DNA of 64,000 bases. Origin: Agrobacterium vitis (lineage in GTDB: Bacteria > Pseudomonadota > Alphaproteobacteria > Rhizobiales > Rhizobiaceae). The stretch is taken from contig NZ_AP023272.1 in NCBI RefSeq assembly GCF_013426735.1, positions 2,028,501-2,092,500 on the forward strand. The letters are read 5' to 3'. The position numbers and the translations under genes are program-made. Under the pieces are notes generated by a model. It saw nothing but the letters and a program-made list of their open reading frames with translations. It was not told the DNA's origin and searched no databases. Below are positions 2-45,716 of this stretch, piece after piece. How positions within the stretch are numbered: position 1 is the first letter of the stretch; each line of letters starts with the position of its first letter.

Positions 2-652
2 CTGGCGCTTGCGGTCAATCGTCCGCTGATCGTTCAATCACTCTGGACGAACAAGGCGACGATTCCGAATGGCTTCAACTTCCCGAACTACGGCAAGACC
101 TTCGATCCGAACCGTCACGCCATGGAATACAATATCGAGGAGGCCAAGCGCCTAGTGAAGGAAAGCGGTTACGACGGTACGCCGATCACCTACCATACGA
201 TGGGCAACTATTATGCAAACGCCGTTCCCGCCTTGATGATGATGATCGAGATGTGGAAGCAGATCGGCGTGACCGTGGTGCCGAAGGTGTATGCACCGGG
301 CGGCGCACCGAAGGATCAGGACAGCTATATGCGCAACTGGTCCAACGGCCAGTGGATGACGGATGCCTGGGCGACGATGATCTGCGAATTCGGACCCAAG
401 GGCCAGGTTCAGAAGCGTTGGGGCTGGAAGGCGCCCGCGGAGTTCAACGATTTGTGCACGAAGGTATCGCAAATACCGGATGGTAAGGAGCGTTTCGACG
501 CCTTCAACCGCCTCCGTGACATCTTCGAAGAGGAAGCGCCGGCCGTGATCCTCTACCAGCCCTTCGATGTCTATGCCGCACGCAAGGACGTTCACTGGAG
601 GCCAATCAGCTTTGAGATGATGGAATTCCGCAACAACCTTGCTTTCGGCTGA
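2..652 (+). CDS. ABC transporter substrate-binding protein, family 5 (C-terminal part)
   Basis: Partial gene cut by the left edge; the reading frame is open from base 2, about 216 residues are visible and it ends at TGA 650-652. The sequence is typical of the C-terminal lobe of SBP_bac_5 (DppA/OppA-type) periplasmic binding proteins: an N-R-P-L-I helix near the start, then Y-N-I-E-E-A-K-R-L-V and the D-I-F-E-E-E-A-P-A-V-I-L-Y-Q end typical of the family. It should capture the solute in the periplasm and hand it to the permeases encoded just downstream. It is followed after 55 bases by the first ATPase gene, so it is the first visible gene of a seven-gene operon. The downstream phosphodiesterase and phosphatase suggest the ligand is a phosphodiester (AccA-like) rather than a plain peptide; that is inference. 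Confidence 0.9.
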   Translation: MALAVNRPLIVQSLWTNKATIPNGFNFPNYGKTFDPNRHAMEYNIEEAKRLVKESGYDGTPITYHTMGNYYANAVPALMMMIEMWKQIGVTVVPKVYAPGGAPKDQDSYMRNWSNGQWMTDAWATMICEFGPKGQVQKRWGWKAPAEFNDLCTKVSQIPDGKERFDAFNRLRDIFEEEAPAVILYQPFDVYAARKDVHWRPISFEMMEFRNNLAFG

Positions 653-707
653 GCAACCTGTCGAACCGGCGGTGCGCATGCATGCGCGCCGCACACGGAG
701 ATCCGCC

Positions 708-1655
708 ATGTCCGACCTATTGACCGTTCGCGACCTCGTCGTCCGGATTCCCGCGCGCAACATAACGATCCTGGACGGCGTCAGTTTCTCTCTGGAGGCA
801 GGTCAGACGCTCGGCCTTGTTGGCGAATCCGGCTGCGGCAAGAGCATCACCTGTTATGCGATCGCCAATGCGCTGCCGCGCGGCATTGTGCTCAGCGGCG
901 GCAGCGTGGCCTTCGAGCCCGGCGGATCCGGTATCTCCAGGCCGGCTATCCCGAAGATCGCGATGATCTTTCAAGACCCGACCAGCAGCCTGAATCCTGT
1001 TCATACGATCGGGTATTATCTGGAGACGGCGCTTCACCGCCATCAGGGTCTCAAGGGCAAGGATGCTCGGATGGAGGCCATGCGACTTCTGGAACGCGTC
1101 GGCATCGACCGCGCCGCGAGCCGGCTGCGGGCCTATCCGCACCAGTTTTCCGGCGGCATGAACCAGCGCGTGATGATCGCGCATGCGCTTGCGGCCAAGC
1201 CCAAGTTGCTGATTGCCGACGAGCCGACGACGGCGCTCGACGTGACCATGCAGGCCCAGATCCTGCATCTGCTGGAAGAGCTGAAGGCGGAAACCGGCAT
1301 GGCACTGATGATCGTATCGCACGATCTCGGCATCATTGCCCGGCTCGCGGACAGGGCGGCCGTGATGTATTGCGGCAAGATCGTCGAGACGGCACCCGTC
1401 GCTGAACTGCTCGAACGACCGGCGCATCCTTACGCACGCGCGCTGATCGACTGCATGCCCAGCATCGATCCTGATGATCTTGCACCGCCGGTCCCAATCC
1501 CTGGATCCGTCCCGCTGCTCGATAGCCTTCCGGTGGGATGCCATTTCCACCCACGCTGCTTGCGTGCGAGCGGCGAATGTTCCACCCGCTTTCCGGCGCC
1601 CATCACTATCGGTCTCGCCCACGAGGCCTCCTGTTACCATCCGGTGGCAGCATGA
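708..1655 (+). CDS. ABC transporter ATP-binding protein (DppD/OppD type)
   Basis: Cytoplasmic ATPase subunit of a dipeptide/oligopeptide-type importer, 315 residues. Visible motifs are Walker A G-E-S-G-C-G-K-S, the signature F-S-G-G-M-N-Q-R, Walker B L-L-I-A-D-E-P followed by T-T-A-L-D, and the C-terminal Cys-containing oligopeptide-transporter extension (C-H-F-H-P-R-C). The ATG at 708 is chosen because CGGAG lies 7 bases upstream and the protein then starts [10 protein letters not shown], the usual beginning of the family; an earlier in-frame start would overlap the preceding gene. Its last bases overlap the next ATPase gene (ATGA), which implies translational coupling. It probably forms a heterodimer with that second ATPase. 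Confidence 0.92.
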
Positions 1656-2701
1656 GCGCTCCTCTTCTTCAAGCCAGCGGTCTGACCAAGGCATTCCGCC
1701 ACAAGACCGGCCTCTTCGCCCGGCCGACCACCCAGCTTGCGGTGGACTCGATTGGCTTTGAACTTGCGATCCGCGAGCGCCTCGGTGTCGTTGGCGAATC
1801 CGGAAGCGGCAAATCGACACTCGGACGGCTTCTGCTCGGATTGACGGAGCCCACACGGGGCGATGTTTGGTTCGAAGGCATCAACCACAAGCAGCGTCAC
1901 ACACGGGACTGGAAGGAGTTTCGGACTCGCACCTCTTTGGTGCAACAGAACCCGCTCTCGGCTCTCAACCCGCAGATGACCATTGGACAGCAGGTAGCCG
2001 AGGGACTGCTGATCCATTATATTGCCAGCCGGGCAGACGCTTATCAACGCGTTGCCACCATGCTCGAGCGCGTCGGCCTGTCGAGCACGATGATGAGCCG
2101 CTATCCGCACCAGATGTCGGGCGGCCAGCGACAGCGTGTCGTGATTGCCCGCGCCCTGATCCTCGATCCGAAACTGGTTGTTTTCGATGAGGCGGTGTCC
2201 GCTCTCGATGTATCGGTTCAGGCCCAGGTGGTCGCGCTTTTACGGTCGCTCTGGCAGGAGCGTGATCTTGCCTATGTCTTCATCACCCACGACCTGCGTA
2301 TCGTCCGCCATCTCGTCGATCGCATCGCAGTCATGTATCTGGGCCGCGTCGTCGAGACTGGCGACATTCGAACCATCTATGCGTGGCCGCGCCATCCCTA
2401 TACGCGGGCGCTTCTCGCATCTGTCCCGACCATGGATCCAAGGGTTCGCAATATCGAACCGCCCATCAAGGGCGAGCTGGATGCGTCGAAAGTGTTGCAG
2501 GGTTGTTCTTTCCGGTCGCGCTGTCCCTTCGCGCTCGACAGATGCGCCGTTGAAACACCCGAACTCCGGCTCATTTCGGCGCATGGCGTCAGCCAGCACA
2601 CTGCCTGTCATCGTGCGGAGGAATTACCGCGATCGATCGCGCCGCAAATGGACATGATGACAGACAGGCAACCAGTCTCACAGAAGGAGACGGCGCTGTG
2701 A
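1652..2701 (+). CDS. ABC transporter ATP-binding protein (DppF/OppF type)
   Basis: Second ATPase of the same importer, 349 residues. Walker A is G-E-S-G-S-G-K-S, the signature M-S-G-G-Q-R-Q-R, and Walker B V-V-F-D-E-A followed by V-S-A-L-D, so both ATPase sites look intact. The C-terminus carries the Cys-rich oligopeptide/dipeptide transporter tail (C-S-F-R-S-R-C-P-F-A). ATG 1652 overlaps the stop of the preceding gene by four bases, and the end overlaps the GTG start of the next permease by four bases (GTGA). This four-base coupling on both sides shows a single operon with balanced subunit synthesis. Confidence 0.92.
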   Translation: MSAPLLQASGLTKAFRHKTGLFARPTTQLAVDSIGFELAIRERLGVVGESGSGKSTLGRLLLGLTEPTRGDVWFEGINHKQRHTRDWKEFRTRTSLVQQNPLSALNPQMTIGQQVAEGLLIHYIASRADAYQRVATMLERVGLSSTMMSRYPHQMSGGQRQRVVIARALILDPKLVVFDEAVSALDVSVQAQVVALLRSLWQERDLAYVFITHDLRIVRHLVDRIAVMYLGRVVETGDIRTIYAWPRHPYTRALLASVPTMDPRVRNIEPPIKGELDASKVLQGCSFRSRCPFALDRCAVETPELRLISAHGVSQHTACHRAEELPRSIAPQMDMMTDRQPVSQKETAL

Positions 2702-3615
2702 CGGCCTTTATCCTTGCCCGTCTGGTTCGAGCGATCGCGGTGCTCATCTTCACCGTCACGCTCGTCTTTATCGTTCTGCGCCTGAGCGGAGATCCAGCCC
2801 AGCAGATGCTCGGCGACGATGTCGGTCCTGCGGCGGTTGCCGCGTTCAATGCCAAATGGGGTCTGGATCGGTCGCTTCCAGAACAATATGCCTATTATGT
2901 CGCAAACGCCGCGCGCGGTGATTTCGGCATCTCCTTTGGCGATGGACGGCAGGTCTTCGACATTGTTGCGGAACGGATACCAAAGACGTTGATGCTAACG
3001 GTGCCAGCCTTGCTGCTCAGCATGCTGATCGGCATTCCCGCCGGCATTCTGGCCGCGATCAGGCGCGAATCCGCGCTCGACAAGGGCGTCATGGCAGGTG
3101 CCGTCCTGGGCTACAGCGTTCCCAACTTCCTGCTTGGCCTTGTCTTCATCTTTGTCTTTGCCGTCTGGCTGCGTGTGCTGCCAAGTTCGGGCAGTTCGAC
3201 ATTAAACCATGCGATCCTGCCGATCGCGACCTTTGCATTGTTCAACGCTGCGGCCGTTGCGCGTTTCATGCGCTCGACGCTGCTCGACGTGCTGGGGCAG
3301 CCCTATATCGCGGCTGCGCGTGCCGACGGGGCGCCTGACTGGGAGATTATCTTGCGGCACGCGCTGCCGAATGCGGCGATCCCCATGGTCACCACGCTGG
3401 GCTTTATCGCGGGTGGCATGATGGGAGGGGCGGCACTGATCGAACCCGTCTTTGCATGGCCAGGACTCGGCATCGGCTTTGTCAGGGCCACGGCCACCGG
3501 CGATCTGCCGGTGGTCCAGGCGATGATCATTCTGTTCACGGTCTTCATGGTGTCGATCAATCTGACTGTTGACATTCTCTATGGCCTGCTCAACCCCAAG
3601 ATCAGGAAGCCGTGA
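2698..3615 (+). CDS. ABC transporter permease (DppB/OppB type)
   Basis: Inner-membrane permease of 305 residues. The N-terminal helix I-L-A-R-L-V-R-A-I-A-V-L-I-F and the following F-I-V-L-R-L-S-G-D-P-A are the hallmark of DppB-type subunits. The cytoplasmic EAA-type loop appears as Y-I-A-A-A-R-A-D-G-A-P near residue 205, followed by R-H-A-L-P-N-A, and the protein ends L-N-P-K-I-R. The start is GTG, fused to the upstream stop. The gene is followed immediately by the second permease, so the two should form the heterodimeric channel. Confidence 0.92.
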   Translation: MTAFILARLVRAIAVLIFTVTLVFIVLRLSGDPAQQMLGDDVGPAAVAAFNAKWGLDRSLPEQYAYYVANAARGDFGISFGDGRQVFDIVAERIPKTLMLTVPALLLSMLIGIPAGILAAIRRESALDKGVMAGAVLGYSVPNFLLGLVFIFVFAVWLRVLPSSGSSTLNHAILPIATFALFNAAAVARFMRSTLLDVLGQPYIAAARADGAPDWEIILRHALPNAAIPMVTTLGFIAGGMMGGAALIEPVFAWPGLGIGFVRATATGDLPVVQAMIILFTVFMVSINLTVDILYGLLNPKIRKP

Positions 3616-3616
3616 C

Positions 3617-4483
3617 ATGCGATCATCGACCACAGCGACGCCCGCAGCGCGTGGAATGAAAACTCCGTTTCGGGGGATGCCGGCCAGCATCGGTGTTTGC
3701 TGCGTTTGGATAGCGCTTGTAGTCGTCGTTGCGCTGACGGCGCAATGGATCGCTCCGCATGATCCGCTGAACCAGAACCCGCTCCTCCGGCTGATGCGGC
3801 CGCTCGTCTCGGTGGCCTTTCCCTTCGGAACCGATTATCTGGGACGCGACATCCTCAGCAATCTCCTGGTTGCTACGCAGATGACCCTTATGATCGCGCT
3901 GGTAGGCTCGATCATCTGCGCCCTTGTCGGCGCCAGTCTCGGGCTCGCGGCTGCGCATTTCGGCGGCTTTGTCGACAATCTCATCATGGGTTTTGCCGAT
4001 GCCATGGCCTCGATACCCTTCATCGTCATCGCACTCGGGGTGCTTGCTCTCTTCGGCTCAAGCCCGTTGCTCTTTGTCTTTCTCGTCGGATTTGCCAGCT
4101 GGGAGCGCTATGCGCGATTGACGCGTGGCCTGGTGATCAGCGCCAGGGAAGAGGGCTATGCGGAAGCGGCCCGCATTGTCGGCGTGCCGTCGATGCGCAT
4201 CTACCTTCGTCATATGCTGCCAAACATCGCCGGCCCGCTGATCGTGCAGTTCACCGTCAACTTCCCGGAAATCATCCTGCTGGAAAGCGGCCTGAGTTTT
4301 CTTGGGCTCGGCATTCAGCCGCCGGAAACGAGCCTTGGATTGATGGTGGCCGACGGTCAAAACTATCTGGCGATCGCCTGGTGGCTCGCCGCCTTTCCCG
4401 GCACGGTCATCGTCCTAACGACCCTCTCCATCAGTCTGCTCGGCGACTACCTGCGCGATCGTCTCGATGCACGGCTGCGCTAA
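3617..4483 (+). CDS. ABC transporter permease (DppC/OppC type)
   Basis: Second permease, 288 residues. It shows the DppC pattern: a first membrane helix (W-I-A-L-V-V-V-V-A-L), the conserved H-D-P-L-N-Q-N-P segment, G-T-D-Y-L-G-R-D-I-L-S, then the EAA loop with Y-A-E-A-A-R-I-V-G-V-P and R-H-M-L-P-N. ATG 3617 begins one base after the stop of the partner permease; a longer reading would overlap it. The start is therefore given by position rather than by a strong Shine-Dalgarno. It completes a full importer of one binding protein, two ATPases and two permeases. Confidence 0.9.
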   Translation: MRSSTTATPAARGMKTPFRGMPASIGVCCVWIALVVVVALTAQWIAPHDPLNQNPLLRLMRPLVSVAFPFGTDYLGRDILSNLLVATQMTLMIALVGSIICALVGASLGLAAAHFGGFVDNLIMGFADAMASIPFIVIALGVLALFGSSPLLFVFLVGFASWERYARLTRGLVISAREEGYAEAARIVGVPSMRIYLRHMLPNIAGPLIVQFTVNFPEIILLESGLSFLGLGIQPPETSLGLMVADGQNYLAIAWWLAAFPGTVIVLTTLSISLLGDYLRDRLDARLR

Positions 4484-4499
4484 ACAAAAGGAAGATAAG

Positions 4500-5300
4500 G
4501 TGAATCCGCTCAGAATGACCATTGAGACGATGCGCCTTGGCGGCCATCGCGGACATAGCGCCGGAGCGCCGGAAAACACACTTGCCGCGTTTCGAAAGGC
4601 TTTCGAATATGCTGGCCCTCTTGTCACTTGCGAGACTGATCTCAGTATCACCAGTGATGGCGAACTGGTGCTGATGCACGACAAGACGGTCGATCGGACC
4701 ACCAACGGCCGTGGCATCATCCAGAAGATGACTTATTCGGAAGTCTCCAGGCTGGACGCCGGAAGCTGGTTCGGCGCGGAATTTGCCGGAGAACAGGTTC
4801 CGCGTCTCAGAGATGCGCTGCAGCTCGCCCGCGAACTCGGTATCATCTATCAGCTCGAACTGAAGATCTACGACCGCAATGACGTCTTGTTTCCGAAGCT
4901 GAAGACTCTGATCGATGAATTGGCCTGCGCAGACCTTCTGCAGTTTTCCTCGTTCGACTACGTTCAGCTGAAAGCGGTGAAAGAGGCAATCCCTGATGTG
5001 CCGACCGTCGGTCTGATGCATTCCCGACTGATCGATCCCGCCGCGATTGCCCGTCAGGCCAATCTCGATGCGATGAACATCGAGATGTATCATTTCGCCA
5101 GCGGCGAGGCACACCAGCTCCACGAAGAGGGTTTTGCCGTCTTCACTTACCTGCCGGCTCAGTATCACGAAAAGCTGATACAGTACGGCACCGATATTGA
5201 AGCCCAGATCGTCAAATGGGTTCGCGAAGGCCAGCTGGATCAGCTTCTCGGCGACGACGTGGCACAGGTGACAAGGCTGAGGGATATGGCCCGTGGCTGA
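4500..5300 (+). CDS. Glycerophosphodiester phosphodiesterase-family protein (AccF-like by context)
   Basis: Metal-dependent phosphodiesterase of the GDPD family, 266 residues, no signal peptide, so cytoplasmic. The N-terminal G-H-R-G-H-S-A-G-A-P-E-N-T motif carries the two catalytic-region residues of the family (His and Glu of H-R-G...P-E-N-T), followed by the metal and acid-base residues in E-T-D-L and V-L-M-H-D-K-T-V-D-R-T-T. GTG 4500 is chosen because AAGGAAG lies seven bases upstream; an ATG at 4515 is possible. It sits between the importer and a phosphatase gene whose start it overlaps. This placement matches accF of the agrocinopine operon, which splits a sugar-phosphodiester opine, but hydrolysis of glycerophosphodiesters is an equally allowed reading. 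Confidence 0.87.
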   Translation: MNPLRMTIETMRLGGHRGHSAGAPENTLAAFRKAFEYAGPLVTCETDLSITSDGELVLMHDKTVDRTTNGRGIIQKMTYSEVSRLDAGSWFGAEFAGEQVPRLRDALQLARELGIIYQLELKIYDRNDVLFPKLKTLIDELACADLLQFSSFDYVQLKAVKEAIPDVPTVGLMHSRLIDPAAIARQANLDAMNIEMYHFASGEAHQLHEEGFAVFTYLPAQYHEKLIQYGTDIEAQIVKWVREGQLDQLLGDDVAQVTRLRDMARG

Positions 5301-6111
5301 CATGCATGCTTCTACCTCGGCCACCAGTGCGGTCGAGGCTGTCGTCGAAGACATTGCGAAGGAAGCCGGAAAATTGGCCCTGACCTATTTTCAGTCTCTG
5401 GCGAGCCTTCCGGTCGAAAAGAAGGGTCACCTCGATCTTGTGACCGAGGCCGATAGGCAGGTTGAGACCCTCCTGATAGCGAGCCTGCAGAAAGCCTTTC
5501 CCGATGACGGCATCTTCGGCGAAGAGGGTGGAGAGATCACGGGAACCTCGGGCCGCATCTGGGTTGTCGATCCGATCGATGGGACGTTCAACTTCGTTCG
5601 GGGCAACCAGAACTGGGCAGTTTCCATCGGTCTTTACGCAAGCCGTCGGCCGGTCTTTGGGGTCATCCACGCACCTGCCCGGGACCTGACCTTCGTCGGA
5701 GGCAGGTCGGTGCCGACAAGACTCAACGGCAAGCCGATCAAGTCGCTTCCCGTCCTCGACATGTCACGGGCCGTAACGGGGTTGAGCTTCCATCCCTCGG
5801 TATCGACGGCTGACAGACTTGAGGTCATACGCTGTCTCTCGGACGACCTTGGCATCAGCTTTCGCGTCGGAGGGGCGGCGACGATTTCCCTGGTCGAGGT
5901 GGCGATGGGCGAAACGGACGGCTATCTGTCGCTTGGGGATTCGACTTGGGATGTGATGGCTGCGCTGCCGATACTCGACAACCTCGGTGCCTCCCATACG
6001 ATCGACTGGGGCAAGATTGACCTGTCATCGAAGCTTCGTTTCGCATGTGGCAGCCCTGAGTTCCTAAACAAGCTTCGCCCACTGCTCAAGCGCATTCCGC
6101 TGCCAGCATAA
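5293..6111 (+). CDS. Inositol monophosphatase-family sugar phosphatase (AccG-like by context)
   Basis: Mg-dependent, Li-sensitive-type phosphatase of 272 residues. Motif 1 is complete: G-E-E-G-G-E supplies the metal-binding Glu pair, W-V-V-D-P-I-D-G-T-F-N-F supplies the D-x-I-D-G-T metal site, and D-S-T-W-D-V-M-A supplies the C-terminal W-D motif. GTG 5293 overlaps the upstream stop by eight bases; an ATG at 5302 would give a slightly shorter protein. Family members hydrolyse inositol, arabinose or nucleotide phosphates. As the last gene after a phosphodiesterase, it most likely dephosphorylates the phosphomonoester that enzyme releases. Confidence 0.88.
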   Translation: MADMHASTSATSAVEAVVEDIAKEAGKLALTYFQSLASLPVEKKGHLDLVTEADRQVETLLIASLQKAFPDDGIFGEEGGEITGTSGRIWVVDPIDGTFNFVRGNQNWAVSIGLYASRRPVFGVIHAPARDLTFVGGRSVPTRLNGKPIKSLPVLDMSRAVTGLSFHPSVSTADRLEVIRCLSDDLGISFRVGGAATISLVEVAMGETDGYLSLGDSTWDVMAALPILDNLGASHTIDWGKIDLSSKLRFACGSPEFLNKLRPLLKRIPLPA

Positions 6112-6162
6112 TCGCCTGAGCTATGGAACAAAGGCAGCTAAGGGGCGCTATACCACTTTCAC

Positions 6163-6450
6163 CTAACCCGGATGGCCGCGGTGAGGGGGGATGCTGCGAT
6201 CGCAATTCAGACGTTCGAGGTTGAGATACGGTCGGCGTCGGCTAAAGGACTGCGCTTTTGAGCTCCCAATATCCTCCATGCGTGGTTTGGCGACCGTCGA
6301 TTGGCTGCGGCTTTCAATCTCGCGTTCATCCTTTGCCAGGAGAGAGCACATGGTTTCGATGCGTCCACGAATGGCGATGTCGTCGGCGATTTTGCTCTGT
6401 TCTGCGTCTGTAGGCTCGCACTTTGCGTCTACCCACGTTCTTCCGATCAT
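6163..6450 (-). CDS. Hypothetical protein, 95 aa, coupled to the upstream secreted protein
   Basis: Not recognised. The ATG at 6450 overlaps the stop of the upstream gene (TAATG), the usual sign of coupled translation. The N-terminal half, with T-D-A-E-Q-S-K-I-A-D-D-I-A-I-R-G-R-I-E-T, looks like a normal soluble helical protein rich in charged residues. The C-terminal half (P-P-H-R-G-H-P-G at the end) is less protein-like, so the true end or even the reality of the gene is uncertain. No membrane segment or signal peptide is seen. Confidence 0.35.
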   Translation of the reverse strand: MIGRTWVDAKCEPTDAEQSKIADDIAIRGRIETMCSLLAKDEREIESRSQSTVAKPRMEDIGSSKAQSFSRRRPYLNLERLNCDRSIPPHRGHPG

Positions 6451-6953
6451 TATTTAACGCCCATGGTGAAACCGGACGATGATCCTACTTTTGTGAAATA
6501 GATTTCCGCCCCGGGCCGTTGCCAGTATGCGGTGTCGGATATCTCGTTGTGATCTTCATTTTCAGGCTTGCCGAGTTCAACCTTTAGGTCGGCGAGCAGG
6601 CTGTCATTGTTGGTCAAACTGTAGCTGCATGCCCGACCCGGATTTACCCCTGTCGCGACCCAGAATGACAAACGGCTCCCGGCCTCTTCATCCCACCATC
6701 CAACGACGTCGACCGTCATCTTGTTATAGCTCTCGTAAGATGATTTCCAATTCTTGTCTTCCGGCATCCGGGGCCATCCGAGCTGGTCTCCCCTTTGCCT
6801 TGCCTCCTCGACACTTGTGGATCGACAAACAGCAAGAGCTTGTGCGACCATAATGCTATTTGCGAGAGATACGCTGACCGGACCAAGGCAAACAATTGCC
6901 GCGGCAATCAGCGATGGCGCAAAGCGATGTTGGCTGAAGTCCGAAACGTTCAA
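6450..6953 (-). CDS. Hypothetical secreted protein, 167 aa
   Basis: Not recognised. The first 30 residues form a plausible signal peptide (basic H-R-F, then a hydrophobic stretch I-A-A-A-I-V-C-L-G-P-V-S-V and S-L-A-N as a cleavage region), so export is likely. The mature part is rich in Trp, Tyr and acidic residues (V-D-V-V-G-W-W-D-E-E-A-G-S) with two Cys. The start is TTG 6953: GCGGAGA lies seven bases upstream and no ATG is available before the signal sequence. It is transcribed towards the IMPase gene of the left operon and overlaps a small downstream gene by one base. Confidence 0.6.
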   Translation of the reverse strand: MNVSDFSQHRFAPSLIAAAIVCLGPVSVSLANSIMVAQALAVCRSTSVEEARQRGDQLGWPRMPEDKNWKSSYESYNKMTVDVVGWWDEEAGSRLSFWVATGVNPGRACSYSLTNNDSLLADLKVELGKPENEDHNEISDTAYWQRPGAEIYFTKVGSSSGFTMGVK

Positions 6954-7260
6954 TAGCGGCTCTCCGCAAATTCATTGGATCATCCAAATAGGATGGCGCG
7001 TGGCGGCTTCTTTTCAAGTCAATGGAGGTCTGAGCTTGAAAAGTCGAAAACCCACATCCGAAGCCCGTTCTGGCAATTGACCCAATATCAGCAAGGGTGG
7101 TGATAATCGGTTTTTCAAGCTGATCTTAGCCGTCAACGCGCAGTCGGATTTCGCAAGACCTGTGGATTGGTGGTCTCCATGTGCTGTAACAAACCATCGA
7201 ACCGCGTGTCGGTTGGGACCTGCGACTGTTCAAATCAGCGTCGGCATGTAACAATGGCGT
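6954..7260. other. Intergenic region between divergent orphan genes
   Basis: About 300 bases with no convincing gene on either strand. It separates the minus-strand secreted protein from the plus-strand small protein at 7261 and so should hold both promoters. No clear terminator hairpin, repeat or RNA gene was recognised here. Confidence 0.5.
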
Positions 7261-8064: not shown

Positions 8065-8690
8065 GCCGTCGTAATACGTTTCACCTGCTGCCTGATCACG
8101 GTATTGCTTTGATTAAGGTTCCACGATTTGACTCGTAATCTAGAATGCAGAAAAAATACACTGAATTACTAGGGGTGTTTTGACCAATATTGGGTTGATT
8201 CGTGCTTAATGCAATTTCATTGTGACGAACTTCCTGTCTCCATGCGCAACGCTTTCCGGCCTTGAACGCTTCAGATCCAGGTTGAAAAAGCGACTGCATA
8301 GTCCCTTAAGTCGGAATCGCTTTGAGGAGAAAATTATGCAGCAAATTTAAAGTGTTAAAGCGTCCTTTGTGCGTTTTATGAAACGCACGGCGCTGTAAGG
8401 GCTTTGCGGGGCTTGATCCATTGCAGGCAGAGATTTTAGAGGCTCTTGCCCGACATGGCTTGAAAGCTGCGTTGCCGCCGATTAAACACGCTATAGCAAA
8501 TGGTGTGATCCCTTTGGGGATGGCGCCTTTGGCAGTGGCAGCTTTCAGGTTCTACGGCGTTGTTTTCGGTCATCGGAGACGCGGCGAGCGGTGATATGGA
8601 GCCGCTTCGGAACATGTCGGGGCGGCGGCTTTGGATTGTTTGCCAGCGGTGTTCCGCGGCAGACGCAACCGGTGTAAAATGGGCAACGAT
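8065..8690. other. Intergenic region upstream of the pcm-like gene, holding repeat copy 1
   Basis: About 625 bases without a convincing gene. It contains the interspersed repeat at 8305-8398. The left part (8100-8230) is AT-rich and could hold promoters for the flanking genes; the right part up to 8690 shows nothing recognisable besides the start region of the methyltransferase. Confidence 0.6.
8305..8398 (+). repeat. Interspersed rhizobial repeat, copy 1 of 3
   Basis: A 94-base element that also occurs at 62357-62449 (nearly full length) and at 41562-41603 (5' part only). The core is GGAGAAAATTATGCAGCAAA followed by TTTAAAGTGTTA. After it comes a perfect 8-bp stem, GTGCGTTT at 8369-8376 and AAACGCAC at 8381-8388, with a four-base loop. 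All copies contain ATG-CAG-(CAR or AAA)-ATW-TAA, a four-codon mini-frame (ATG at 8336) preceded by a purine-rich GAGGAG. The three copies share orientation and each precedes a plus-strand gene. Confidence 0.75.
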
Positions 8691-9344
8691 ATGATCGATT
8701 TTGAAGCAGCGCGGGCGAAAATGGTGGACGGCCAAATTCGAACGACGGATGTAACCTCTCATTCCGTGCTTTCGGCTTTTCTGTCCGTACCGCGGGAAGC
8801 CTTTGTGCCGGAAAATCTGAAAGCCCTGGCTTATATCGATGAAGATATTCAGGTCGCACCCGGTCGCTATCTGATGGATCCGTCGCCGCTTGCCAAGCTT
8901 TTGCAACTGGCGGAAATTGGCCGCAGTGAACTGGTCCTGGAAATCGGAGCGGGCACCGGTTATGTCTCGGCTTTGCTCGGACGGCTGGCCGGTGCGGTTT
9001 TCGCCGTTGAAAGCGATGAGCAGCTGGCTAGTGCTGCAAAGTCCAATCTTGAAAAGCTGGGTGCCGCGAATGTCACGGTCGTTCAATGTCCGCTGGAGGC
9101 TGGCTATTCCAAAGAAGCTCCTTACGATCTGATTTTCCTGAGTGGGTCGGTCGAGGAAGTGCCTCCGGCACTGTTTGATCAATTGCGTGACGGTGGTCGT
9201 TTGGTTGGCGTGGTCGGTAGCGGCCGTGCCGTCCGTGCTCATGTCTTCGTCAAGGCCGGTGGTTCGGTTTCGACAAGCTCGCTTTTCAATGCTTCGATCA
9301 AGCCGCTTCCCGGTTTTGAAAAAGCGCGTGAATTCGTATTCTGA
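8691..9344 (+). CDS. Protein-L-isoaspartate O-methyltransferase family protein (first of two)
   Basis: SAM-dependent methyltransferase of 217 residues in the PCMT family. The SAM-binding motif I, V-L-E-I-G-A-G-T-G-Y-V-S-A-L-L, is at about residues 82-96. The N-terminal F-E-A-A-R-A-K-M-V-D-G-Q-I-R-T is the form found in rhizobial homologues next to tolC. An M-in-frame at 8679 would add four residues; 8691 gives the family-typical M-I-D-F. The true substrate is unclear: a second, more canonical pcm follows surE at 33303, so this copy may have diverged. It is followed by a hairpin and the long tolC upstream region. Confidence 0.85.
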   Translation: MIDFEAARAKMVDGQIRTTDVTSHSVLSAFLSVPREAFVPENLKALAYIDEDIQVAPGRYLMDPSPLAKLLQLAEIGRSELVLEIGAGTGYVSALLGRLAGAVFAVESDEQLASAAKSNLEKLGAANVTVVQCPLEAGYSKEAPYDLIFLSGSVEEVPPALFDQLRDGGRLVGVVGSGRAVRAHVFVKAGGSVSTSSLFNASIKPLPGFEKAREFVF

Positions 9345-9940: not shown

Positions 9941-9970
9941 TTGGCTTAATTAAAGTTGGGAGATGTATCC

Positions 9971-11374
9971 TTGTCGAGCCTTCGTAACGTGGCCTATGCC
10001 GCAGCATTTCTTCCGCTGTTTTTTCAACCTGCCGTGCTGCATGCCGAAACCATCTTCGGCGCCATGGAAAAGGCTTATAAGAACAATCCTGATCTGAACT
10101 CGGTGCGTGCCGCTCTGAGGGCAACGGATGAGAGCGTGACGATTGCCAAGGCCGGATACAGGCCGCAACTGGGCTTTTCCGTCTCCGGTACTCAGTCTTC
10201 CTTTGCCAATTTCAATGGCACCGCCATCGGCAATCTACCAGCGGATAAATATTCGGCGGATTATTATAAATCCGACGTGCAGCTGACATTGACCCAGCAG
10301 ATTTTCGATGGCTTCCAGACACTGAACAACGTGCGCTCCTCAGAAGCGGGCGTGCTTTCCAATCGGGAGAGCATGAAAGCGGACGAGATCCAGATCCTGC
10401 TCGGCGCAGCCCAGGCCTATGCCGATGTGGCGCGGGACCAACAGCTTGTCAGTATCCGCCGCCAGAACCTGAGCTTCCTCAAGGAACAGCTGAAAGCCGC
10501 CAACGCGCGCCTGGAGGTGGGCGAAGGTACCAAAACCGATGTCAGTCAGGCAGAGGCGCAGTTGGCAGGTGCCGACAGTCTGCTGGCCTCTGCTATCGCT
10601 CAGTTGAGACAGAGTGAAGCATCCTATGTGCAGGTGGTTGGCGAGATGCCGAAGGATGTGCGCCAGCCCGTACGCGCCACCAAGGCGATGCCGACCAATC
10701 TCGACAAGGCCGTTGCTTTGGGTATCAGAGAGCATCCCAGCGTGCTTGCCGCGCTGCATGCGGTAACCTCGGCGCAATACCAGGTGAAGTCGGCTGAAGG
10801 CAGCCTGCTTCCGGGCGTCAGCATTCAGGGCAGCCTTGATCGGCATAATACGGATAATCCCAGCGAGTCGACCGACCGCGATTATTCTGCGGCCTCTATT
10901 ACAGCGCAGGTAAAAATTCCGCTCTACCAGGGCGGTTCGGAATATGGTCAGATCCGCAAAGCCAAGGAAACCGTTGGTGCGCAGGAACTGAAAGTCGATT
11001 ACGCCCGATTGAGCGTGCGAAAGCAGATCATGACCGCTTTTGCCCAGATGCAAGCCGCAACGGCGGCCATCACCTCGGGCCGCAAGCAGGTTGCTGCCGC
11101 AAAGCTCGCCTTGCAGGGCGTTATCGAGGAACGCAATGTCGGCCAGAAGATCACTCTAGACGTTTTGAACTCGCAACAGACCGCACTCGACGCGCAGGAA
11201 AGCCTGGTGAACGCGCAGCGCAATGAAGTGGTCGCCAGCTATTCATTGCTGGCGGCAACCGGCACCTTGACGGTCAGGAGCCAAGGATTGCAGGTTGCGG
11301 AATATAACGCGGAAGAGCATTATGATGCCGTCAAGGACAAGTGGTTCGGATTGCGGGCCGCCAACGGCAAATAA
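9971..11374 (+). CDS. tolC: Outer-membrane efflux protein TolC
   Basis: Trimeric outer-membrane channel-tunnel used by type I secretion and by RND efflux pumps. The protein of about 467 residues begins with a signal peptide (A-A-F-L-P-L-F-F-Q-P-A-V-L-H-A-E). The mature part shows the duplicated OEP pattern: A-M-E-K-A-Y-K-N-N-P-D-L and Q-L-T-L-T-Q-Q-I-F-D-G-F in the first half, V-K-I-P-L-Y-Q-G-G-S and N-V-G-Q-K-I-T-L-D-V-L-N-S-Q-Q-T in the second. Coiled-coil helices are Ala/Gln-rich as expected. The start is TTG: 9971 is preferred because GGGAGA lies eight bases before it, though TTG 9956 is in frame. The gene is flanked by two copies of a hairpin element and has an unusually long leader. Confidence 0.93.
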   Translation: MSSLRNVAYAAAFLPLFFQPAVLHAETIFGAMEKAYKNNPDLNSVRAALRATDESVTIAKAGYRPQLGFSVSGTQSSFANFNGTAIGNLPADKYSADYYKSDVQLTLTQQIFDGFQTLNNVRSSEAGVLSNRESMKADEIQILLGAAQAYADVARDQQLVSIRRQNLSFLKEQLKAANARLEVGEGTKTDVSQAEAQLAGADSLLASAIAQLRQSEASYVQVVGEMPKDVRQPVRATKAMPTNLDKAVALGIREHPSVLAALHAVTSAQYQVKSAEGSLLPGVSIQGSLDRHNTDNPSESTDRDYSAASITAQVKIPLYQGGSEYGQIRKAKETVGAQELKVDYARLSVRKQIMTAFAQMQAATAAITSGRKQVAAAKLALQGVIEERNVGQKITLDVLNSQQTALDAQESLVNAQRNEVVASYSLLAATGTLTVRSQGLQVAEYNAEEHYDAVKDKWFGLRAANGK

Positions 11375-11495: not shown

Positions 11496-11678
11496 ATTAT
11501 GCCCTTCATCCCGGATAATTCGGCCCGGCTGGCGAAACAATCCTCGATTGAACTCATAAAACTGTGTATTTTGGGCTTTAAGCTTTTGAAGGCGATTTCC
11601 TCGAGCAAAGGGGTATCCTAAGGTCAAGCGAATCACATGGCAAAAGCCGATGGGGTTTGAAGCCAAATGGGGAATGTA

Positions 11679-12602
11679 ATGGCCCAGCCGAATGTATCGC
11701 GTGAACCGTCCATGGAAGAGATCCTGGCCTCCATTCGCCGGATTATCGAAAGCAATGAGCCGGCACCCGCCCGGTCTTTCGATGATGCCTATGGTTATGA
11801 CAGTGAAGTGGACGAACTGGATATTGCAGGCAATGCGTTTTCCGTTGAGGCTGTGCCCATGGATTTACCGGTTGCGGCCAACCAGCCAGGCCCGGTTCAG
11901 CTGGCGGCATCTGCTACAAACCGTTTCTCTGAGGGGGCAGGCGATCAGGGGGCTGGCGGACAGCAGATAGCAGATGGCGCAAGAGCAGATAGTCAAAGAC
12001 ATGCCGCAAAGCCGGTTTCGCTTGCCGATCTTGCGGCGCGGGTGCGCGCCACGTCCGAGCGGCGCGAAGAGCCTGGCACTGCCGAGTTCCCTTCTGAATT
12101 TTCCTCCGCTTTTTCCAAGCAAGAGCCACAATCTCGCGATGGTCGTGGGGCCTCTTCCTACATGTCTGACACTATTGGTGGTTTTCGCGAGATTCCTACG
12201 GAGCAAGCGGCGCCTCTGGGGCAGATCCGGCCCATGGCACAGGCGCGAATCGCCGAACCGGAAGCCATGAGCGCCAGCCAGCGCCATATCGAAGCTCTAT
12301 TGCAATCGGAACTTGTGAATCAGGCTGCGGTCGCCCCTCAGGGACAGGCCGAAGAGGCGGATACGCAGGGCGATACTCGACAAGGTGCGCTTTTGTCCAT
12401 GCAGGCCGGTGCGCAGGTGGCCAAGTCCTTTGAGGAACTGGCAGCTGTCGTCGATGGTCAGCAGCGTAGGTCGCTGGATGAAATCGCCCAGGATATGTTG
12501 CGGCCGATGTTGCAGGACTGGCTTGACGACAATCTGCCGACGCTGGTTGAGCGTCTGGTGCGCGAAGAAATCGAACGAATTGCACGTGGTCCGCGCCGCT
12601 AA
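11679..12602 (+). CDS. popZ: Polar organizing protein PopZ (DUF2497)
   Basis: Pole-organising scaffold of alphaproteobacteria that gathers ParB-parS, chromosome and cell-cycle proteins at a pole; in Agrobacterium it marks the growing pole. The 307-residue protein has the three-part PopZ layout: N-terminal helix (E-P-S-M-E-E-I-L-A-S-I-R-R-I-I-E, residues 8-23), a long acidic, Pro/Gln/Ala-rich disordered middle, and the conserved C-terminal helices (M-L-R-P-M-L-Q-D-W-L-D-D-N-L-P, then E-R-L-V-R-E-E-I-E-R-I-A-R). ATG 11679 follows TGGGGAA by five bases; the in-frame ATG at 11667 has no such site. It is followed by a terminator and then valS, the usual rhizobial order. Confidence 0.9.
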   Translation: MAQPNVSREPSMEEILASIRRIIESNEPAPARSFDDAYGYDSEVDELDIAGNAFSVEAVPMDLPVAANQPGPVQLAASATNRFSEGAGDQGAGGQQIADGARADSQRHAAKPVSLADLAARVRATSERREEPGTAEFPSEFSSAFSKQEPQSRDGRGASSYMSDTIGGFREIPTEQAAPLGQIRPMAQARIAEPEAMSASQRHIEALLQSELVNQAAVAPQGQAEEADTQGDTRQGALLSMQAGAQVAKSFEELAAVVDGQQRRSLDEIAQDMLRPMLQDWLDDNLPTLVERLVREEIERIARGPRR

Positions 12603-12800: not shown

Positions 12801-15659
12801 ATGTCTGGTCAGAACATGCTCGATAAGACCTATGATTCCGCAAGCGTAGAACCGAAAATCGCCAAGGCCTGGGATGAGGCGGAGGCATTCCGCGCCGGTG
12901 TCAATGCCAAGCCGGGTGCGGAAAGCTTCACCATCGTCATCCCGCCGCCGAACGTGACCGGGTCGCTGCATATGGGCCACGCGCTCAACAATACCTTGCA
13001 GGACATCATGATCCGTTTCGAGCGCATGCGCGGCAAGGATGTGCTGTGGCAGCCGGGTATGGACCATGCCGGCATTGCCACGCAGATGGTTGTCGAGCGG
13101 CAGTTGATGGAAAAGCAGCTTCCGGGCCGCCGCGAGATGGGCCGTGATGCCTTTATCGACAAGGTCTGGGAGTGGAAAGACGAATCGGGCGGGTTGATCT
13201 TCAATCAGTTGAAGCGGCTTGGCGCATCCTGCGACTGGTCGCGCGAGCGTTTCACCATGGACGAGGGCCTGTCCGAAGCGGTTCTGGAAGTCTTTGTCAC
13301 ACTCTACAAGCAGGGGCTGATCTACAAGGACAAGCGCCTCGTCAATTGGGACCCCAAGCTGTTGACGGCGATTTCAGATCTTGAAGTCGAACAGCATGAG
13401 GTCAATGGCAATCTCTGGCATCTGCGCTATCCGCTGGAAGAGGGCGTGACCTACCAGCACCCCGTGGCCTTCGATGAAGACGGCAAGGCGACGGAATGGG
13501 AGACCCGCGACTACCTGGTGGTCGCCACGACCCGCCCGGAAACCATGCTGGGTGATACCGGCATTGCCGTTCATCCCGATGATGAGCGCTATCAGTCAAT
13601 CATCGGCAAGCATGTGATCCTGCCGATCGTTGGCCGCAGAATTCCTATTGTCGGTGACGAATATCCCGATCCGACGGCCGGTACGGGTGCTGTGAAAATG
13701 ACACCCGCCCATGACTTCAACGACTTTGATGTCGGTAAACGCGCGGGCCTGAGGATGATCAACATCCTCAATATCGATGCGACGGTGACCATTGTCGAGA
13801 ATGACGATTTCCTGGAGGGTCTGACCCCAAGCCGTGAACAGCAGATGGTCTGGGCCGAGCTGGAAGGCCAGGACCGGTTCTTTGTTCGCAAGAAGATCGT
13901 CGAGATCCTGGAGGCCGAAGGCCTGCTCGACAAGATTGTGCCGCATAAGCACATGGTGCCGCATGGCGACCGTGGCGGCGTGCCGATTGAGCCGCGCCTG
14001 ACTGAGCAATGGTATGTTGACGCCAAGACGCTGGCCAAGCCCGCCATCGACAGCGTGCGCGAAGGCCGCACGAAATTCGTGCCGAAAAACTGGGACAAGA
14101 CCTATTACGAATGGATGGAGAATATCCAGCCCTGGTGCGTGTCTCGCCAGCTCTGGTGGGGACACCAGATCCCGGCCTGGTATGGGCCGGATGGTCAGGT
14201 CTTCGTTGAAAAGGACGAGGAAACGGCGCTTCACGCTGCCATTCAACATTATCTGTCGCATGAAGGGCCGATGAAGGCTTTCGTGGAGGACAAGATAGAG
14301 AACTTTAAACCGGGCGAAATCCTGACCCGCGACGAAGACGTGCTCGATACCTGGTTTTCCTCGGCGCTCTGGCCGTTCTCCACCCTCGGCTGGCCGGAAA
14401 AAACACCGGAAGTGGCGCGCTACTATCCGACCAATGTGCTGGTCACCGGCTTTGACATCATCTTCTTCTGGGTTGCCCGGATGATGATGATGAGCCTGCA
14501 TTTCATGAAGGATGAAGCAGGCAACCCGGTTGAGCCATTTGAAACCGTGTATGTCCACGCCCTGGTGCGTGACAAGAACGGTCAGAAAATGTCGAAATCC
14601 AAGGGCAATGTCATCAACCCGCTGGAGCTGATCGATGAATATGGCGCCGATGCGCTGCGCTTCACGCTGACCATCATGGCCGCCCAGGGCCGCGACGTGA
14701 AGCTGGATACGGCGCGCGTCGCGGGCTATCGCAATTTCGGCACCAAGCTGTGGAACGCCACCCGTTTTGCCGAGATGAACGGTGTGAAGTCCGATCCATC
14801 CTTCCTGCCCGAGGCCGCGACATTGGCCATCCACCGCTGGATCCTGACGGAGCTGACGCGGGCTGAACGCGAGGTGACGGAGGCCATCGCGCATTTCCGG
14901 TTCAATGATGCGGCCAGCGCGCTTTATCGCTTCGTCTGGAACCAGTTCTGCGACTGGTATCTGGAATTGCTGAAGCCGGTCTTTGCCGGTGAAGACGAGG
15001 TTGCCAAGACGGAAGCCCAGGCCTGTGCGGCCTATGTGCTGGAGCAGACCTACAAGCTGCTGCACCCCTTCATGCCGTTCATGACGGAAGAATTGTGGGC
15101 GCATACCGCAGGTGAGGGTGTCGAGCGCGAAACACTGCTGTGCCATGCCGATTGGCCGGTTCTGACCTTCAGCGATGAGCAGGCGGCGGCCGATATCAAC
15201 TGGCTGGTGGATCTGGTCAGCGGCATTCGTTCGGCCCGCGCGGAAATGAATGTGCCGCCTTCCGCCGTCGCACCACTCACAGTCGTGGGTGCCAACGGCG
15301 TGACCCGCTCCAGGCTGGAGCACCATGAAGCCGCCATCAAGCGTCTGGCGCGGGTGGGTGACATCAGCCATGCCCCGGAAGCACCGAAGGGGTCGGCTCA
15401 GGTGATCGTCGGCGAGGCCACGGCCTGCCTGCCGCTCGGCAGTCTGATCGATCTTGGTGCTGAGCGAGCCCGTCTAGAAAAATCCATCGGCAAGGTTGAC
15501 CAGGATATTGAGAAGGGGCGCAAGAAGCTCGGCAATGAGAAGTTTGTCGCCAATGCCGATCCGGAAGTCGTCGCCGCTGAGCGTCAACGGCTTGCCGAAC
15601 TGGAAGAGCAGCGCGGCGTACTGGCTGTGGCCCTGCAGCGAGTCAACGAGGCCGGTTGA
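12801..15659 (+). CDS. valS: Valyl-tRNA synthetase
   Basis: Class I aminoacyl-tRNA synthetase charging tRNA-Val, 952 residues, full length for the family. The HIGH motif is in P-P-N-V-T-G-S-L-H-M-G-H-A at about residues 48-60, the editing (CP1) domain shows T-T-R-P-E-T-M-L-G-D-T, and the KMSKS loop is K-M-S-K-S at about 596-600. The C-terminus has the charged coiled-coil arm (A-R-L-E-K-S-I-G-K-V-D-Q-D-I-E-K-G) that contacts tRNA. ATG 12801 is used; an ATG at 12816 giving M-L-D-K-T-Y matches the start in many relatives and is equally plausible. Confidence 0.97.
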   Translation: MSGQNMLDKTYDSASVEPKIAKAWDEAEAFRAGVNAKPGAESFTIVIPPPNVTGSLHMGHALNNTLQDIMIRFERMRGKDVLWQPGMDHAGIATQMVVERQLMEKQLPGRREMGRDAFIDKVWEWKDESGGLIFNQLKRLGASCDWSRERFTMDEGLSEAVLEVFVTLYKQGLIYKDKRLVNWDPKLLTAISDLEVEQHEVNGNLWHLRYPLEEGVTYQHPVAFDEDGKATEWETRDYLVVATTRPETMLGDTGIAVHPDDERYQSIIGKHVILPIVGRRIPIVGDEYPDPTAGTGAVKMTPAHDFNDFDVGKRAGLRMINILNIDATVTIVENDDFLEGLTPSREQQMVWAELEGQDRFFVRKKIVEILEAEGLLDKIVPHKHMVPHGDRGGVPIEPRLTEQWYVDAKTLAKPAIDSVREGRTKFVPKNWDKTYYEWMENIQPWCVSRQLWWGHQIPAWYGPDGQVFVEKDEETALHAAIQHYLSHEGPMKAFVEDKIENFKPGEILTRDEDVLDTWFSSALWPFSTLGWPEKTPEVARYYPTNVLVTGFDIIFFWVARMMMMSLHFMKDEAGNPVEPFETVYVHALVRDKNGQKMSKSKGNVINPLELIDEYGADALRFTLTIMAAQGRDVKLDTARVAGYRNFGTKLWNATRFAEMNGVKSDPSFLPEAATLAIHRWILTELTRAEREVTEAIAHFRFNDAASALYRFVWNQFCDWYLELLKPVFAGEDEVAKTEAQACAAYVLEQTYKLLHPFMPFMTEELWAHTAGEGVERETLLCHADWPVLTFSDEQAAADINWLVDLVSGIRSARAEMNVPPSAVAPLTVVGANGVTRSRLEHHEAAIKRLARVGDISHAPEAPKGSAQVIVGEATACLPLGSLIDLGAERARLEKSIGKVDQDIEKGRKKLGNEKFVANADPEVVAAERQRLAELEEQRGVLAVALQRVNEAG

Positions 15660-40161: not shown

Positions 40162-40164
40162 GCA

Positions 40165-40551
40165 TTGGCAAAGGGCATTATCATCCGCGAGGCGCATTTT
40201 CCGGGCCGGTCCCCCATTGATGCCTATGGCAATGGCGGGTTCCGGTTCGCGGATATGTCGCATCGCGGCTCCCTTTTGCTTTTACCCTCAGGCATTTATG
40301 GCTGGGATATGCGCGAAGGCGACGACCTGACGGTCGCCGCCCTCCAGCGCCTGCTGGACGAGGCGGATAAGGTCGAGTTCCTGTTGCTCGGCACGGGCGC
40401 TGAACTGCGCCGTATCCCCAGTGACGTTAAAGCCGCTCTGACCGCCGCTGGCATCGGTTCTGACCCGATGAGCACCGGAGCTGCGGTGCGGACCTATAAT
40501 GTGATGCTGGCGGAAGAACGGCCCGTCGCCGCCGCATTGATTGCAGTCTGA
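40165..40551 (+). CDS. Mth938-like domain protein (NDUFAF3 homologue)
   Basis: Small soluble protein of 128 residues of the DUF498/Mth938 family. The pattern A-Y-G-N-G-G-F-R-F-A-D, G-S-L-L-L-L-P-S-G-I-Y-G-W and F-L-L-L-G-T-G-A-E-L-R-R-I-P is characteristic. The start is TTG 40165, eight bases after GGGAG and three bases after the secDF stop, so it is in the secDF operon. The human homologue NDUFAF3 helps assemble respiratory complex I, and this position behind secDF is conserved in alphaproteobacteria; the bacterial role is not established. Confidence 0.87.
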   Translation: MAKGIIIREAHFPGRSPIDAYGNGGFRFADMSHRGSLLLLPSGIYGWDMREGDDLTVAALQRLLDEADKVEFLLLGTGAELRRIPSDVKAALTAAGIGSDPMSTGAAVRTYNVMLAEERPVAAALIAV

Positions 40552-40555
40552 TCCC

Positions 40556-41419
40556 ATGGCGGAAAGTGCAAAACCATCGCCATTGGTCCCGGATGTCTGC
40601 CTGGCAATGCTGCGGGAGATCGACCGTGACCGGTATTTGGCCTGCCTTCTCTCCCCGCCGGAAAAACAGCCTGCCTTGGCAGCACTCTATGCCTTCAATG
40701 CCGAGCTTGCCCGGGTGCGTGATTTGGTGCGGGAGCCCTTGCCAGGCGAAATCCGGCTGCAATATTGGCGCGACCTGCTTTCGGGCAAGGGGCATGGCGA
40801 CACCACGGCCAATCCGCTGGCGGCAGGGCTTTTGGCAGCGGTGGAATCCTATCGTTTACCGGTTCAGCCTTTGCTCGACATGATCGATGCGCGGATTGCC
40901 GATCTTTATGATGATCCGATCGGGCCAAGATCGGCGCTGGAAGGCTATGCGGGAGAGACCGCCTCGGCGCTGATCCAGTTGGCGAGCCTGGTGCTGAATA
41001 CCGAGGCCGCACTGACTTGCGCAACCATTGCAGGCCATGCCGGGGTTGCTCAGGCCATTGCCGGCCTGCTGGCGCTGATGCCGCAGCATCGGGCGCGGGG
41101 ACAACTCTACATTCCCGACGAAATTCTGACCGCGACTGGCCTTGACCGCGAGGCCTTCCTGTCGGGCAAGGACGAGATGAGAATCGATGGTGCCATCGAA
41201 GCCTTCGCCGGTCTGGGGCTTGATCATCTTGCCAAGGCGCGCGCAGGCGGCAAGCTTCCTGCGTCTCTGGTTCCTGCCTATCTGCCCGTAGCGCTCGCCG
41301 GTCCTATTCTGCGGGATGCTCGCCGGCGCGGCGCCGATATTCTGCAAACACCGATCCGCCGAGCCCAGTGGCGCCGCCAGATGACACTGCTGCGCGCCAG
41401 CATGACGGGTCGATTTTAG
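40556..41419 (+). CDS. Squalene/phytoene synthase-family protein (NDUFAF6 homologue)
   Basis: Protein of 287 residues with the trans-isoprenyl diphosphate synthase fold. It shows D-R-D-R-Y-L-A-C-L-L-S-P-P-E and Y-A-F-N-A-E-L-A-R-V, and R-L-Q-Y-W-R-D, but in place of the paired D-x-x-x-D substrate motifs of true synthases it has E-L-A-R-V-R-D and only scattered Asp. That degeneracy is typical of the NDUFAF6 (C8orf38) group of complex I assembly factors. It starts five bases after the NDUFAF3-like gene. A genuine prenyl synthase role cannot be excluded by reading. Confidence 0.83.
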   Translation: MAESAKPSPLVPDVCLAMLREIDRDRYLACLLSPPEKQPALAALYAFNAELARVRDLVREPLPGEIRLQYWRDLLSGKGHGDTTANPLAAGLLAAVESYRLPVQPLLDMIDARIADLYDDPIGPRSALEGYAGETASALIQLASLVLNTEAALTCATIAGHAGVAQAIAGLLALMPQHRARGQLYIPDEILTATGLDREAFLSGKDEMRIDGAIEAFAGLGLDHLAKARAGGKLPASLVPAYLPVALAGPILRDARRRGADILQTPIRRAQWRRQMTLLRASMTGRF

Positions 41420-41561
41420 GGCGGTCAGGTTCCTCCTGAACCAGCCCCTCGGGAAAACCCGGATTCCACTTTTCCTGGCAAACGACGCACAGGTTTGCAC
41501 TCCGGCTCCAAACTCACGCAAGGCTCATCCGTTAAATCTTGCCAACTGCAAAATCCGCAAG

Positions 41562-41603
41562 TTGGAATCGTATCAAAGGATTATGCAGCAGATATAAAGT
41601 GTT
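41562..41603 (+). repeat. Interspersed repeat, copy 2 (5' part only)
   Basis: Shares GGAATCG and the core TTATGCAGCAGATATAAAGT plus GTT with the copies at 8305 and 62357, but the 3' hairpin part (GTGCG/CGCAC) is missing. The mini-frame ATG-CAG-CAG-ATA-TAA is at 41583-41597. It lies 60 bases upstream of the small membrane protein gene. Confidence 0.65.
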
Positions 41604-41662
41604 GCCGCAATTGCGCGATCCTCGATCGGCAGTGCTGCTCTCGCATCATCCGGAGGTTGCCA

Positions 41663-42127: not shown

Positions 42128-42171
42128 GTAGGATGGTCCATCAGGTCCATTGAGATTGTCGAGCCTTGGAA

Positions 42172-43629: not shown

Positions 43630-43726
43630 GGCGGCTGCTTATCACGCCTTGCCGCCGCTTCCAATCTTGAACAGAGCAAATTGCACTTTGGAGATGCAAG
43701 CTTGGTTTGGAGATCCAGAAATAGAA

Positions 43727-43747
43727 AACGGCGCCAAAAGCGCCGTT
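43727..43747 (-). terminator. Rho-independent terminator of the DUF1127 gene
   Basis: AACGGCGC (43727-43734) and GCGCCGTT (43740-43747) form an 8-bp stem with a five-base loop. On the minus strand it continues into TTTTCTATTTCT. It lies 35 bases after the DUF1127 stop. Confidence 0.8.
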
Positions 43748-43782
43748 CGAACATTCAATTCAAGTTTTAAAACCGGATCCGA

Positions 43783-44841: not shown

Positions 44842-44896
44842 CGTGTGCTGGCTCATGGCTTGCAGATTGACTTCAAGCTTCATTCTGCTAACCCTA

Positions 44897-45262: not shown

Positions 45263-45314
45263 GGCTTAACGCCCAATTGGGGGAGAGATCCCCGACGCCA
45301 GCACGGAGGTTGTC

Positions 45315-45712: not shown

Positions 45713-45716
45713 CGCC

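Follow-up and report, generated by a model that had tools for sequence, protein, structure and literature searches.

Among the closest described systems, the agrocinopine catabolic (acc) operon of the tumor-inducing (Ti) plasmid pTiC58 serves the use of agrocinopines A/B and the uptake of agrocin 84, and a passage of a study on C58 (PMC4526662) states that the phosphodiesterase AccF frees arabinose-2-phosphate or glucose-2-phosphate, which bind the regulator AccR. The acc operon of the root-inducing (Ri) plasmid pRiA4 lies near virD4, with the agrocinopine synthase (Acs) gene on the same plasmid. Outside tumor-inducing strains, a passage on Ensifer meliloti M270 (PMC5994717) describes an accessory plasmid that has genes for making, transporting and catabolizing agrocinopines and lacks those for the transfer of T-DNA (transferred DNA). 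A passage of the K306 genome note (PMC7365797) names accG, two accF genes and accR and gives no location, and no title or abstract opening found by a literature search names a chromosomal acc operon. Here, an acc operon is described from the chromosome of Agrobacterium vitis. The window is the whole analyzed stretch of 64,000 nucleotides (2,028,501–2,092,500 of NZ_AP023272.1, the 3.77-Mb contig C1 of a 5.88-Mb genome, G000 below); 10 kb of upstream DNA was added to it, and negative coordinates lie upstream of the window.

The combined evidence makes it highly probable that a small insertion in the chromosome of this genome carries an acc operon that is complete and looks functional and that would import and degrade pyranose-2-phosphate diesters. 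A complete collinear accR-accABCDEFG set was present, in which accR and the first part of accA precede the window, and all eight reading frames were open. The genes, assigned by alignment and Pfam, were:

-1774 to -962, plus strand: accR, DeoR-family regulator (DeoRC, HTH_DeoR)
-913 to 652 (window part 1–652), plus strand: accA, family-5 binding protein, 521 aa
708–1655, plus strand: accB, oligopeptide-type ATP-binding cassette (ABC) ATPase
1652–2701, plus strand: accC, oligopeptide-type ABC ATPase
2698–3615, plus strand: accD, ABC permease
3617–4483, plus strand: accE, ABC permease
4500–5300, plus strand: accF, GDPD-family phosphodiesterase
5293–6111, plus strand: accG, IMPase-family phosphatase

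Gene starts were set by alignment to the plasmid Acc proteins, and the individual gene letters are those which we take to apply. The content and order of the genes (binding protein, two ATPases, two permeases, GDPD and IMPase) agreed with a preliminary description made from the letters of the window, and the 5' end missing from the window proved to hold the remainder of accA and, upstream of it, a DeoR-type AccR. That description had called the genes overlapping, which was correct for three junctions (4, 4 and 8 bp) and incorrect for the remaining ones, which were gaps of 55, 1 and 16 bp.

Protein alignments bore out the proposal that the operon is of the acc type, and the findings that the preliminary description had named as refuting it did not turn up. 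The eight collinear proteins were 70–87% identical to the Acc proteins of pTiC58, pRiA4 and pTi_Tun201 (AccR 75–83%, AccA 80–86%, AccB 78–82%, AccC 77–78%, AccD 71–79%, AccE 72–76%, AccF 83–87% and AccG 70–78%). A chance likeness was excluded because all eight aligned with their pTiC58 counterparts over most of their length at 70–83% identity, in the same order. Comparison of AccA with PDB sequences gave AccA entries at 876–1140 bits and the next other protein at 112 bits, and none of the NCBIfam equivalog cut-offs was reached by the binding protein, the ATPases or the permeases among the matches listed (the best 25 per ATPase); both results led to the rejection of a simple dipeptide or nickel binder. 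That AccF is a housekeeping GDPD was rejected as well, since its best other relative in its own genome was 43% identical over part of its length, compared with the values above for plasmid AccF. AccG as a housekeeping IMPase was rejected on its identity to plasmid AccG, compared with 104 bits for its best PDB relatives (own-genome paralogs were left unsearched). Alignments of AccF to GDPDs of solved structure and of AccG to IMPases ran through stretches which we take to be their catalytic motifs. The genome was judged to hold no second acc copy, as the next-best relative of AccA in it was 32% identical.

The residues around the bound pyranose-2-phosphate are listed in a passage of the C58 AccA study (PMC4526662). 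All 17 listed neighbor positions matched pTiC58 AccA in the present protein, and 3 of the 26 positions compared differed, none of them among the 17. Glu504, as printed in that passage, is Trp in both proteins. The chromosomal AccA of genome G004 differs from the present AccA by S198N, T321M, H344R and G466S, and exactly these substitutions are shown by PDB 8CH1 (six PDB entries), so that a chromosomal AccA of the vitis group has already been crystallized and deposited as AccA. G004 carries the same operon with the same right flank on its chromosome as the present genome, but it differs in the DNA between tRNA-Cys and the operon and in having RolB-family genes, none of which were found in the present genome. 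We take G004 to be Allorhizobium ampelinum S4. AccA was 99% identical among the three vitis-complex carrier species, one of which is A. vitis CG78 (G005, chromosome 1).

Upstream of accR, three candidate control elements were located by pattern matches:

-1886 to -1871: distal palindromic operator
-1816 to -1801: Pho-box-like direct repeat
-1792 to -1758: paired proximal operators

Their conservation was examined in 24 loci, comprising L009 (the 18-kb stretch of the present genome with the acc operon and its flanks), L011–L013 and 20 of 26 AccA loci; L021, L024, L028, L030, L036, L037 and all of L116–L123 were left out. Relative to shuffles that preserve base composition only, the palindrome was exact in 20 loci and had at most one mismatch in all 24 (shuffled means 0.0 and 0.05), the proximal operator was exact in 19 and within one mismatch in all 24 (0.0 and 0.95), and the Pho-box-like repeat was exact in 22 (0.2), the other two loci having only one-mismatch matches elsewhere in the stretch. 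With up to one mismatch, the palindrome was the sole match in the 18 kb of L009 (0.07 expected), and no exact match to it lay inside the 64-kb window. Promoter-like sites (4 versus 4.1) and terminator-like sites (8 versus 7.5) were not in excess of those in shuffles. Given the identity of AccR to its plasmid counterparts (75–83%) and the conservation of the block, an AccR-type DeoR repressor with predicted operators upstream is present. The true start of accR is probably the GTG near -1735, because the mechanically called start overlaps the proximal operator and because of the alignment with pTiC58. The acc genes are reportedly under dual control by agrocinopines and phosphate, in the words of a title in a reference list.

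Per gene, the ratio of nonsynonymous to synonymous substitution rates (dN/dS) was 0.06–0.14 versus Neorhizobium petrolearium and 0.07–0.14 versus pTiC58. Among the three vitis-complex species dS was 0.01–0.06, too low for firm ratios, and at such low dS accE gave 0.59 versus G004 and accG 0.51 versus CG78.

The operon is located on an island-like chromosomal insertion and not in the ancestral core, as indicated by the following features:

-6370 to -6297 (L009 3630–3703): tRNA-Cys
-5247 to -5172: left 76-bp direct repeat
6112–7131: remainder of the insertion, as far as the right repeat
6450–6953, minus strand: 167-aa frame without a Pfam match
7132–7207: right 76-bp direct repeat, sharing 90.8% identity with the left one

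The two repeats bound a segment of ~12.3 kb in the present genome, and tRNA-Cys lies ~1 kb outside the left one. Eight vitis-complex genomes were compared (G000, G004, G005, G056, G057, G058, G060 and G061), three of which (G000, G004 and G005) had the operon with the same right flank. The site was empty in G058 and G056, where the left flank joins the right at about -5172/-5181 and 7129/7140, and G061 had kept ~535 bp of the right end of the segment (the last part of 6112–7131) and lacked the operon; the compared stretches of G057 and G060 did not reach the right flank. Matching stretches of G004, G005 and G061 were 95–97% identical to the DNA of the present genome, which, together with the AccA identity to CG78, places it in the Allorhizobium vitis complex. 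The 76-bp repeat was single-copy at the empty sites, and it was single, at the right end only, in the compared stretches of G004, G005 and G061. Homology of G004 and G005 to the present genome stopped 7 bases beyond the 3' end of tRNA-Cys, and in G056 the sequence around this 3' end was repeated beyond an insertion of ~13.7 kb; the vitis complex has a hotspot of integration at tRNA-Cys. Integrase-like frames were noticed by eye near tRNA-Cys in G056 and G061. No integrase was seen in the present segment, in a scan that did not take in every small frame. Of the earlier placement on the chromosome beside core genes, the chromosomal location stands, and a plain core location is rejected by the repeat-bounded segment and the empty sites in G056 and G058.

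Within the genus, 8 of 63 genomes had an AccA at E ≤1e-150. Within the family, 394 genomes were sampled and 19 had one at E ≤1e-120; in 12 of the 19 it was only 40–44% identical and perhaps belongs to a different subfamily. Scanning the genome collection yielded 32 loci, and in 26 the identity of AccA was 58–99%. A traR gene was linked in 9 of the 39 acc loci examined, most orphan operons being without one, and no linked traR or arc genes were found in L009. An unrooted tree was built from concatenated AccA–F (32 rows, 2103 columns) with 32 of 37 prepared loci, omitting L021, L024, L028 and L037 as near-duplicates by eye and L036 because of a broken frame. The three vitis-complex operons grouped with N. 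petrolearium (96/98), within a clade of seven (100/100) that also held Rhizobium terrae, R. oryzicola and isolate AFS040727, and operons of the pTiC58, Tun201, pRiA4 and Bo542 types (for the last, L030 was used, its accA sharing 99.9% identity with that of pTiBo542) fell outside this clade. The tree places traR-free orphan operons, not Ti operons, as the nearest relatives, and descent from one of the sampled Ti/Ri operon types was rejected on its basis.

The genomes of N. petrolearium, R. terrae, R. oryzicola and AFS040727 resemble the present one in that no linked traR was found and no Acs or RolB gene, but their operons have different neighbors, and in R. terrae (L018) and R. oryzicola (L016) no accG adjoins accF, unlike in the present operon. 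With pTiC58 the present operon shares the eight genes, their order and the operator block, whereas it differs in being chromosomal and in having no adjoining traR/gtfA/Na-Pi (arc) or NUDIX/epimerase genes. The closest plasmid type by AccA is pRiA4 (86.3%), from which it also differs in its chromosomal location. The genes of E. meliloti M270 are, according to the passage cited above, found outside tumor-inducing strains, as here, but are plasmid-borne and accompanied by synthase genes, unlike the present operon. A second, distant AccF-like GDPD gene (32–34% identical) was observed in or beside the acc operons L033, L036, L038 and L116, and in Paenochrobactrum gallinarii (L033, 8127–9980) two AccR-like genes in opposite orientation adjoin the acc operon.

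Searches for Acs, with pTiBo542 Acs as the query, and for RolB were each positive in four of four Ti/Ri plasmid controls. No Acs match was found in the carriers G000, G004 and G005; Acs was full-length in G056, G057, G060 and G061 and was represented in G058 by a 125-residue piece only, so that none of the eight genomes, which form a small set of relatives, had both the island acc and a full-length Acs. RolB-family genes were present in the other seven vitis-complex genomes and the four controls, and none was found in G000. Among 12 genomes reached through acc loci, G456 and G459 were positive for Acs, and the other ten had no Acs match or matches of 20–27 bits only and no RolB; the four clade-mate genomes (G451–G454) had neither an Acs match nor RolB. 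The opine arrangement of Ti plasmids (linked traR/arc, Acs and RolB T-DNA genes) was not found in the present genome. A divergent set of genes resembling virulence (vir) genes was observed on contig C5 of G000 (96,407 bases) at about 40016–51613 (L134, L135), with VirC1 at 394 bits, VirD4 66% identical to that of pRiA4 and a match to the VirE2 family that is weak (35 bits); it also includes a protein of 600 aa, F-box-like by eye and without a Pfam match.

Downstream of the operon, the window continues with:

8631–9344: PCMT
9956–11374: outer-membrane efflux (TolC-type) protein
11667–12602: DUF2497 protein, presumably PopZ
12801–15659: 952-aa frame, ValS-like by eye only

At -2268 to -1969 (L009 7732–8031), just 5' of accR, the C-terminal end of an IS3-family transposase survives as a short remnant (22.9 bits).

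The DNA itself shows which genes are present and in what order, the residues of the ligand site, the conservation of the control elements, the constraint on the genes and where the segment ends. Following the pTiC58 system in all biochemical steps and in regulation, the operon may be pictured to work as follows. Periplasmic AccA would bind molecules ending in pyranose-2-phosphate (agrocinopines or related sugar phosphodiesters), and AccBCDE would carry the captured diesters inward. AccF would cleave the diester to a sugar and arabinose- or glucose-2-phosphate; the latter would bind AccR, causing it to leave the operators upstream of accR, and AccG would strip the phosphate to give sugar and phosphate. 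The Pho-box-like element might raise expression under phosphate starvation. Because no agrocinopine synthase or RolB-family gene was found in the genome, the bacterium would be a scavenger of diesters that others produce. Agrocinopine-like pyranose-2-phosphate diesters, cleaved by AccF and dephosphorylated by AccG, would be the most likely substrates. No specific support was found for the import of glycerophosphoinositol, which the preliminary description had also considered.

Several points weigh against this picture. The substrate of the operon, its expression and its role in growth are predictions from sequence; the control-element patterns were derived from the same alignment on which they were counted, and two additional matches to the Pho-like pattern lie within the 18 kb of L009. 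Compared with pTiC58 AccA, the present protein differs at loop positions 406 and 407 and has Phe in place of the hinge residue Tyr493. The suggested entry of agrocin 84 is plausible from the binding site, but a passage of a 2014 paper (PMC4159041) describes tumorigenic R. vitis as insensitive to agrocin 84. Since intact AccA and AccF should import and activate agrocin 84, the reported insensitivity is a puzzle, and the AccA and AccF sequences offered no obvious cause for it. It may be that the operon is silent, that it was absent from the tested strains (3 of the 8 genomes compared carry it at this site) or that the target is less sensitive.

The same reported insensitivity would also fit an operon for opine use that is now a silent or decaying relic, as would its absence from the corresponding site of G056, G058 and G061 and the IS3 remnant just upstream, and a recent relaxation would be hard to detect at the low dS within the three species. 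However, the eight open frames, the near-identity of AccA in three species, the constraint versus more distant relatives and the retention of the control elements make a relic improbable. A generic oligopeptide, nickel or glycerophosphodiester importer combined with a housekeeping phosphodiesterase and phosphatase would agree with the Pfam and NCBIfam matches, which were at the family level only (SBP_bac_5, GDPD, Inositol_P and Opp/Nik permeases), but such a combination is hardly credible when no curated NCBIfam cut-off was reached by the transporter proteins among the matches listed and AccA entries scored ~eightfold above the next PDB protein in bits. Another possibility, tentative but better placed than these two, is that AccA-type machinery has a non-opine natural substrate, such as another pyranose-2-phosphate diester from soil, plant or microbe used for carbon and phosphate, and was recruited by Ti/Ri plasmids later. 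The clade-mates and the 10 of 12 locus genomes without substantial Acs or any RolB, including Kaistia, Devosia and Paenochrobactrum, are consistent with this possibility, as is the lack of linked traR in most orphan operons; but we know of no such natural compound, opine scavenging from the galls of other strains fits the same pattern, and the tree is unrooted, so that the direction between plasmid and orphan operons is not given. That the root of Acc was a non-opine pyranose-2-phosphate diester pathway, kept by the orphan operons and recruited by Ti/Ri plasmids with the addition of traR control, is conceivable yet somewhat unlikely.

The AccA protein itself is not new, and the operon type is also known; what is added here is the full operon with its regulator and operators, its island, its traR-free kin, carriers without a detected synthase, and the clash with agrocin 84. 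Should a non-opine pathway lie at the root of Acc, there would be an unrecognized natural pool of pyranose-2-phosphate compounds, and agrocin 84 would mimic those and not only opines. Under the favored reading of a complete acc operon on a chromosomal insertion, a practical question is raised by grapevine agrobacteria that are reported to be insensitive to agrocin 84 though some carry an apparent uptake and activation system. The use of agrocinopines and the uptake of agrocin 84 are commonly regarded as traits of plasmids. With an intact operon on the chromosome of three vitis-complex genomes in which no Acs was found, this uptake is heritable apart from tumor induction, and the occurrence of acc in strains without a detected opine-making gene hints at a use outside the crown gall.

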